Source: Bdellovibrionales bacterium (GTDB lineage Bacteria; Bdellovibrionota; Bdellovibrionia; Bdellovibrionales; UBA1609). Taken from it: a DNA stretch of 64,000 bases. The stretch is from assembly GCA_019637855.1 (NCBI GenBank), contig JAHBUX010000017.1, positions 1 to 64,000 of the forward strand, in the 5' to 3' direction. How positions within the stretch are numbered: position 1 is the first letter of the stretch; each line of letters starts with the position of its first letter. This document shows, one piece after another, positions 47,163 through 49,186 of this stretch. Below the pieces are notes generated by a model. That model searched no databases, had not been told where the DNA came from, and saw only the letters and a program-made list of their open reading frames with translations. A program made the position numbers and the translations under genes.

Positions 47163-47536
47163 AGCAAAAGGTTCATTTCAAAGCCTCACCGCAAGTCATT
47201 TACGATCTCTTGGTCGATTCTAGGAAACACACGCAGTTGACGGGAAAAAAGGCGGAGATCAGTAAGAAGGTGGGAGGGGCTTTCCGTAGTGGCTCTGTTA
47301 CAGGTGTAAATGTGGATTTGGTGCCGGGAAAACGGATCGTGCAAGCTTGGCGCGATCGGGATTTTCCGGAAGGTGTTTTTTCTATGGCGGCCGTGACCCT
47401 CGTTGATTCCAAGAGCGGCGGTACGGACTTGACGCTGACTCATAGAGGCGTGCCAAAGGACTTGATCCCTCGCGTGGATATGAATTGGCGTCAGAACTAT
47501 TGGCAGAAAATAAAAGAACGGATCGCAAAAGCCTAA
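47147..47536 (+). CDS. SRPBCC/AHSA1 domain protein
   Basis: 129 residues. KVHFKASPQVIYDLLVDSRKHTQLTGKKAEIS, GGAFRSGSVTGVNVDLVPGKRIVQAWRD and the final helix WRQNYWQKIKERI fit the AHSA1/START-like fold, which holds a hydrophobic ligand. Coupled to ArsR, it may bind or modify the compound sensed or exported by the neighbouring carrier; that is inference. Its TAA overlaps the hisS stop (CTAA). Confidence 0.88.
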   Translation: MCKTIKQKVHFKASPQVIYDLLVDSRKHTQLTGKKAEISKKVGGAFRSGSVTGVNVDLVPGKRIVQAWRDRDFPEGVFSMAAVTLVDSKSGGTDLTLTHRGVPKDLIPRVDMNWRQNYWQKIKERIAKA

Positions 47537-48855
47537 CGGCTGTTCAACAGAGCTTGCGCCGTTTGGACGACAGAGTTACCTGCGGCAACGTCCACCTGTT
47601 GGCCTGTACCCAAGTGCTTCAGCACCAGCTTGCCGTCGAACATGAACATCGCGACTGCAGCTTCGGTGCGGGCCGCGACCTGCAGACCCTTTTTCAGTTT
47701 TCCCACGGAAACGGTGTTTACCGAATGGCGCAAGCGCTTGAGCTCATTGCCCGCGGCGATCAAAGGTTTGGAGTCGGCGGTCTCTGCATCTAAAATCAAG
47801 CAGAAGTCGGAAACGTATTTCGGATAGTCGCGCATTTTCTCCGGCTCGAGCGACTCTTTTGCCATGATTCGAGTGACGCCAATCGAGAACCCCACGCCGG
47901 GGAGCTTCTTATTGCCGAAACCCTCGGCCAAGTTGTCATAGCGACCGCCCGAGCAGATGCTGCCATAGGTGTCGTCACTGGTAAATTTGCCTTCGAAAAT
48001 GCTGCCGGTGTAGTAGTCGAAGCCGCGCACAAATGACAGATCCGGATAGATTACCTCTTGGACTCTAGGGCTACCAATCAGCTTCACATTGTTCAGCAGC
48101 TCTTGCAGTTCGGCCAAGCCTTGTTCGAAAACTGGGTGACTCACACCTAAGGAAGTGGCCAGGGCGGTGAGGTTGTCTGCGTCTTTAGGCAAGGCCGCCA
48201 ACGCCAAAGATTTTCTAGCGAGCTCAGCGCTCATGCCGCAAGTCTCGACCAGGAGTTTGGCTACACCTTCGGTCCCAATTTTTTCAAGTTTATCGATCAA
48301 GCGCAGAACGGGAACTGTATTTTCCACGCCCAGGCCGCGCAAATAGCCTTCGTAAATTTTGCGATTGCTGACGCCGACTTTAAAGGGTGCAATGCGCATC
48401 TTCAGCATCGATTCTACACCCACGCACACGACCTCGGCGTCGTACAAGGCAGGCAAGGTCTCCGCATCAATTACATCGATATCCGCTTGGTAGAACTCGC
48501 GGTAGCGACCGAATTGGGGGCGCTCCCCGCGCCAGACCTTTTGAATCTGATAACGCTTAAACGGAAACGCCAAGCGCGAAAAATGCTCGGTCACATAGCG
48601 TGCAAGCGGGATTGTCAGATCGTAGTGCAGAGCCAACTCTTTGCTGGTCTCTTTGTCGCCGGGTTTAGTCAGGCAATAGATCTCTTTGTCGATCTCGCCT
48701 TTGATTTCAAGTGTGCTGAGATGTTCAACCGACGCGGTTTCCACGGGTAAAAAGCCGTTGCGGCGGGCGTGCGTCGAAATTCGACGCAGCCATTTTTCCT
48801 CGATCGCTTTGACCTTGGGCTGCCATTCTGGAAAACCGCTGACCGCTTTTTTAAT
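47533..48855 (-). CDS. hisS: histidyl-tRNA synthetase with apparent ATT start codon
   Basis: 440 residues counted from ATT 48855. Class II motifs include LHYDLTIPLARYV, GRYREFYQADIDVI and the HisRS signature RGFDYYTGSIFE, with the C-terminal anticodon domain after 330. It charges tRNA-His. The first canonical start (GTG 48744) would cut off the conserved N-terminus KKAVSGFPEW ... RRNGFLPVETAS. The frame holds no ATG, GTG or TTG above that before an in-frame TGA. GGAG lies seven bases before ATT. Confidence 0.93.
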   Translation of the reverse strand: MKKAVSGFPEWQPKVKAIEEKWLRRISTHARRNGFLPVETASVEHLSTLEIKGEIDKEIYCLTKPGDKETSKELALHYDLTIPLARYVTEHFSRLAFPFKRYQIQKVWRGERPQFGRYREFYQADIDVIDAETLPALYDAEVVCVGVESMLKMRIAPFKVGVSNRKIYEGYLRGLGVENTVPVLRLIDKLEKIGTEGVAKLLVETCGMSAELARKSLALAALPKDADNLTALATSLGVSHPVFEQGLAELQELLNNVKLIGSPRVQEVIYPDLSFVRGFDYYTGSIFEGKFTSDDTYGSICSGGRYDNLAEGFGNKKLPGVGFSIGVTRIMAKESLEPEKMRDYPKYVSDFCLILDAETADSKPLIAAGNELKRLRHSVNTVSVGKLKKGLQVAARTEAAVAMFMFDGKLVLKHLGTGQQVDVAAGNSVVQTAQALLNSR

Positions 48856-48887
48856 GGGACATCTCCGTTTTTTCGAGATGCTACCCC
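48853..48887 (-). promoter_or_regulatory. hisS initiation region: AUU start and hairpinned ribosome site
   Basis: In the transcript CATCTC (48880-48875) pairs with GAGATG (48865-48860) over a nine-base A-rich loop, and GGG/CCC can close the base. The Shine-Dalgarno GGAG lies in this stem. The start read from it is ATT at 48855-48853. A tiny ATG-TCC-CAT-TAA frame overlaps it. Confidence 0.55.
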
Positions 48888-48904: not shown

Positions 48905-49186
48905 CTACTTCAGCTCGCAGCCATATTTGGCTGACACGTAACGAAAGGTGGCTATCTTTGACTTATCCTCAGAGGTGGCGGTGACTTCTTTTTTGGCCTC
49001 ATCGATGGTGGCGTCGCCCACCAGAAGAGCTAAGCGAACGTCGTCACGGCAGCCGGCCTTACTTTGTCCCACCAGAAAGCGGCACGAGCAGAGCTCTTTG
49101 GCCAAAAACACGGTTGAAGAGTCTTTTTCCGGGGCGCAGGCGGTGAGTGTCAGGACAAGGAAGGTCCAAGCGAGAGTGTTTTTCAC
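48905..49186 (-). CDS. small Cys-rich lipoprotein
   Basis: 93 residues. The lipobox is LTAC (Cys17), and then four more Cys (ELCSCRF, AGCRDD, YGCELK), which may form disulfides in the periplasm. No family recognised. Its ATG overlaps the serine hydrolase stop as ATGA, so the two are translationally coupled. Confidence 0.75.
   Translation of the reverse strand: MKNTLAWTFLVLTLTACAPEKDSSTVFLAKELCSCRFLVGQSKAGCRDDVRLALLVGDATIDEAKKEVTATSEDKSKIATFRYVSAKYGCELK

Follow-up and report, generated by a model that had tools for sequence, protein, structure and literature searches.

The histidyl-tRNA synthetase gene (hisS) on the minus strand of the window, the whole 64,000-nucleotide stretch of Bdellovibrionales DNA analyzed here, probably starts at an AUU codon (positions 48855–48853). 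This reading, drawn from the gene and its genomic context, makes hisS a well-supported candidate for an essential gene that uses a rare start codon. To our knowledge, starts other than AUG, GUG and UUG are documented in very few bacterial genes, and a literature search found no AUU start at a bacterial aminoacyl-tRNA synthetase gene. If the assignment is correct, an essential synthetase with an AUU start would tie tRNA charging to the level of initiation factor 3 (IF3), and such a start could be kept or gained by an acquired gene that has displaced its native counterpart. Proteins of this kind are cut short by gene callers; the first callable hisS start is 37 codons too late.

Counted from the ATT, hisS spans 47533–48855 and encodes 440 residues in a frame that is uninterrupted over its 440 codons and contains all HisRS motifs. 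The class II HisRS signatures include motif 2 (GERPQFGRYREFYQADIDV), VRGFDYYTG (RGxDYYTG), SGGRYD, and the motif 3 arginine segment GVGFSIGVTR. The product scores 272.4 bits against TIGR00442, slightly below the cut-off of 286.75, matches PF13393, and can be aligned to 3NET, the nearest solved structure. By sequence, it is a complete class II HisRS.

The hisS frame, with its stop at 47533, is open upstream to an in-frame TGA (48912–48910), and no ATG, GTG or TTG occurs in it between this TGA and a GTG at 48744–48742. On the minus strand, the TGA is followed by AGT AGA CAG GTC CGG CCG GCT TGG GGT AGC ATC TCG AAA AAA, and the start region reads CGG AGA TGT CCC ATT AAA AAA GCG GTC AGC GGT TTT CCA GAA TGG. 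The SGFPEW segment encoded here is common to distant homologues and lies 5′ of every canonical in-frame start, so initiation has to occur ahead of this segment; the GTG falls past the conserved N-terminus, inside the conserved domain, and its use would cost 37 residues. A Shine-Dalgarno-like GGAG (48866–48863) precedes the ATT by exactly seven bases (ATGTCCC), a spacing typical of this genome. Re-reading the minus strand thus bore out three observations of the initial annotation: the absence of a canonical start up to the TGA, the seven-base distance between GGAG and ATT, and the conserved N-terminal residues encoded upstream of the first GTG. A small lipoprotein-like gene (ORF 48905–49186, minus strand), for which neither Pfam nor NCBIfam gave a match, lies upstream of hisS and ends 49 nt before the ATT.

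The missing start was compared with the rest of the genome, using statistics drawn from 1.23–1.57 Mb and a dicodon model whose training data came from this genome. According to the model, coding in hisS begins at 48858, one codon before the ATT, and hisS ranks first among 1353 genes (1.55 Mb, 46% of the genome) for coding signal lost before the first canonical start. Whereas 19.4% of predicted starts have GGAG 5–8 nt upstream, the figure for internal ATT codons in frame is only 1.1%. A scan of 742 genes singled out hisS as the one gene whose ATT outscored every canonical start and was followed by a conserved N-terminus; infC was recognized separately. A LysR gene (C18:11514–12485) that seemed to lack a start was rejected, as a GTG with AGGAG precedes the usual LysR N-terminus.

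Apart from the window gene, no HisRS gene, neither a second copy nor a native hisS, was found in this genome, whose completeness is 99.98%. In congeners, the hisS flanked by a lipoprotein gene and kynB is the native one and differs from the window gene. Contig C26 of this genome also carries these neighbours, 55–71% identical to the congeners' copies, and the gap between them is 721 bases (L239:6566–7285) without similarity to hisS. Since the window gene is the sole HisRS and the native gene is gone from its conserved locus, it must be translated and work. In a phylogenetic tree, it groups with SGFPEW-type enzymes from Actinomycetota, Deinococcota, Lentisphaerota and another family of its own phylum and is well separated from the native genes; its branch is long and its exact position uncertain. 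Together, the tree position and the empty native locus mark a xenologous displacement: as read from these sequences, the native hisS was cleanly displaced by a foreign synthetase gene. Five other genomes of the same family (G008, G010, G011, G015 and G028; L002–L006) carry a third, separate hisS type that is apart from the native type in the tree. Judged from the sequences, this family has undergone more than one replacement of HisRS.

The search for closer relatives returned none above 48% identity in the order, the class, the phylum (369 genomes), GTDB contigs or viral contigs. The start codon could be read in 91 homologues, all at or below this identity, and was ATG in 90 and TTG in one; ATT was found in none. 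With an AUU start, five residues (counting fMet) precede SGF, compared with the usual seven in the clade. The closest homologue in the phylum (48%; G361, L116 / L240 around 7400) has no ATG, and its only candidate start is a TTG (MAKTITKLTGFPEW).

Ribosomes of this lineage use such codons elsewhere. The infC gene of this genome, which encodes IF3, reads CAGGAGG-CTAACA-ATT-CGT-CCA (C2:79629; L187) and lacks a usable canonical start. All four genus members have the ATT behind AGGAGG, and the three congeners (G001, G002 and G003) share the ATT, the AGGAGG and the six-base spacer. Across the order, 28 of 30 infC loci start at an AUN codon (18 ATT, 6 ATC and 4 ATA, one of the ATC calls, L196, also having an ATG two codons upstream), while the other two start at TTG. 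This distribution indicates that AUN starts are used by the ribosomes of the lineage; it also means that gene callers will misplace infC. AUN starts are known for infC of E. coli and Streptomyces (PMC5472188).

An HNH-nuclease gene (PF14279; L281, C10:12581–13126, minus strand; relatives L282–L288 and L293–L309) lacks a canonical start across much of the order. In 18 of 25 orthologues, an SD-like stretch (mostly AAGGAGG or GGAGGT) is followed after 3–10 nt by TTC (once TAC) and AAT or AAC, at which codon conservation begins. L295 and L296 have an in-frame stop two codons upstream of the TTC, and other frames are not consistently open; family f8 has an ATG instead. This pattern points to a conserved start outside the canonical set, perhaps UUC, or to an unfamiliar recoding.

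The main competitor of the AUU start is a sequence error, in either of two forms. The assembly appears clean: comparison of about 180 genes with their counterparts in a congener, over 57,600 aligned residues, gave no genuine frameshift, the lone frameshift-like pair being a shadow frame on the strand opposite a sucD-like gene (C1:564504–565442), and on its 66.7-kb contig the hisS start is 17.8 kb away from the closer end. The only other start-less genes recognized in the sample, infC and the HNH gene, lack a start in relatives as well and are therefore not sequence errors. These findings lower the probability of a one-base error at the hisS start without bringing it to zero, and we regard the two forms together as possible but unlikely.

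The first form concerns an ATG at 48862–48860, absent from the initial annotation, that adjoins the GGAG and opens an overlapping mini frame one base out of the hisS frame (ATG TCC CAT TAA, encoding M-S-H-stop; 48862–48851, minus strand). If the CCC at 48858–48856 were one base too long through an assembly indel, this ATG would be the true start, giving MSIKKAVSGFPEW. The protein would then have seven residues before SGF, the common length in SGFPEW-type homologues (MIKPTPLSGFPEW, MSKPTPLSGFPEW), and this genome shows a mild excess of TCC at codon 2. However, the ATG touches the GGAG and has no other SD; a spacing of zero is seen in 2 of 909 starts, a chance rate. A run of three Cs is also not error-prone in short-read data, the data type suggested here by contig order and sizes, and the alignment to the congener shows no frameshift. 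We therefore give an indel a small but real chance of being correct. In the second form, a single-base error or a strain-mixture consensus at 48853 hides an ATG at which initiation is ordinary and occurs at the same place. The SD spacing and the AAA AAA that follows would suit an ordinary start equally well, and all hisS homologues have canonical starts. Nevertheless, it requires a mistake at precisely one position of a genome that shows no visible errors, where the other start-less genes are real, and its chance of being right is slight. The initial annotation had considered the change of ATG to ATT as the main alternative; it stays among those considered, but the N-terminal length of the family is better matched by an indel that follows the ATG at 48862.

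Other starts are improbable. A near-cognate AUC (48879–48877) has GGGGU just upstream, but this is a poor SD at a spacing of three; the GTG at 48744 is the first canonical codon, but starting there would remove the SGFPEW segment found in all homologues. Still less probable is that a base truly was inserted downstream of the ATG at 48862 and that ribosomes enter hisS either through a +1 frameshift at AUG-UCC-C(AU) or by reinitiating at the AUU after the M-S-H stop. The UAA of the mini frame does overlap the AUU, and its third codon is His; against this, the ATG has no usable SD, no homologue has such an arrangement, and other support is absent. It is very improbable that this frame makes hisS self-sensing, in which case scarce charged tRNA-His would stall the ribosome at CAU and let it slip by +1 from UCC onto CCC into the hisS frame, giving M-S-I-K-K...; HisRS would then rise on histidine starvation.

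An AUU start for hisS, as first proposed from the sequence, hence remains the best reading: the gene is essential and the sole hisS, the SD is at the proper distance, and infC uses AUU, although none of the 91 homologues has ATT. An SD of only 4 nt, partly paired, also counts against it, and the evidence comes from one assembly of the species.

The pairing of the SD involves a hairpin (GGG..GCATCTC-loop-GAGATGT CCC; 48886–48856, minus strand) with a predicted energy of −11.9 kcal/mol. Its stem joins 48881–48875 to 48865–48859 through seven pairs, one of them G-U, and GGG (48886–48884) can additionally pair with CCC (48858–48856). As the initial annotation had noticed, the GGAG sits in a stem, most of it (GAG) being paired with the first G in the loop; the ATT is open. 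The folding energy of hisS from −40 to +20 is in the lowest 6% of 909 genes, and the 90-nt fold has a z of −1.3. An SD buried as deeply is found in 24% of SD-bearing genes (24th percentile). A sigma-70-like promoter, TAGACA-18-TAGCAT (48907–48878, minus strand), is a consensus match only, at 9 of 12 positions, with 0.2 such sites expected in a 600-base region. Its −10 element overlaps the upstream arm of the hairpin; a transcript from it would begin near 48871, inside the loop, yielding an mRNA without that arm. Because burial of the SD is ordinary and the promoter-like site overlaps the arm, the case for control of hisS by leader folding, which had been suggested earlier, is weak. Such control could still apply to any transcripts that read through from upstream.

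We propose that hisS came from another lineage and took the place of the native gene. Its GGAG, pairing with the 16S rRNA, would direct fMet-tRNA to the AUU at 48855–48853, and the product would begin fMet-KKAVSGFPEW..., i.e. (M)KKAVSGFPEWQPK. By analogy with infC, the start is expected to be weak, IF3-sensitive and of low output, and a promoter just upstream may supply an hisS mRNA with a short leader. We infer that the AUU is genuine and serves as the start codon, that hisS is repressed by IF3, and that the upstream promoter gives the short leader; the link to IF3 and initiation fidelity is an extrapolation from infC.

Among known systems, infC of E. coli and of this genome resembles hisS in having an AUU at SD distance without a usable canonical start, for which a weak, IF3-sensitive start is expected. 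However, the SD of infC is 6–8 nt long, whereas hisS has only GGAG, 4 nt and partly paired; the AUN codon of infC is conserved across the order, whereas the ATT of hisS is seen in this one genome, the gene having no orthologue above 48% identity; and infC has a feedback logic that hisS does not share. The second known AUU-start gene is pcnB of E. coli, which lies outside the initiation machinery. Its protein is unrelated to HisRS, but an AUU start outside that machinery would be common to both. In Streptomyces, sigR has a GTC start that is repressed by IF3 (PMC5472188). The sigR start was shown experimentally and is conserved in Streptomyces, whereas that of hisS is predicted from one genome; the two are nevertheless alike as non-canonical starts outside infC, overlooked by gene callers that assume ATG, GTG or TTG.
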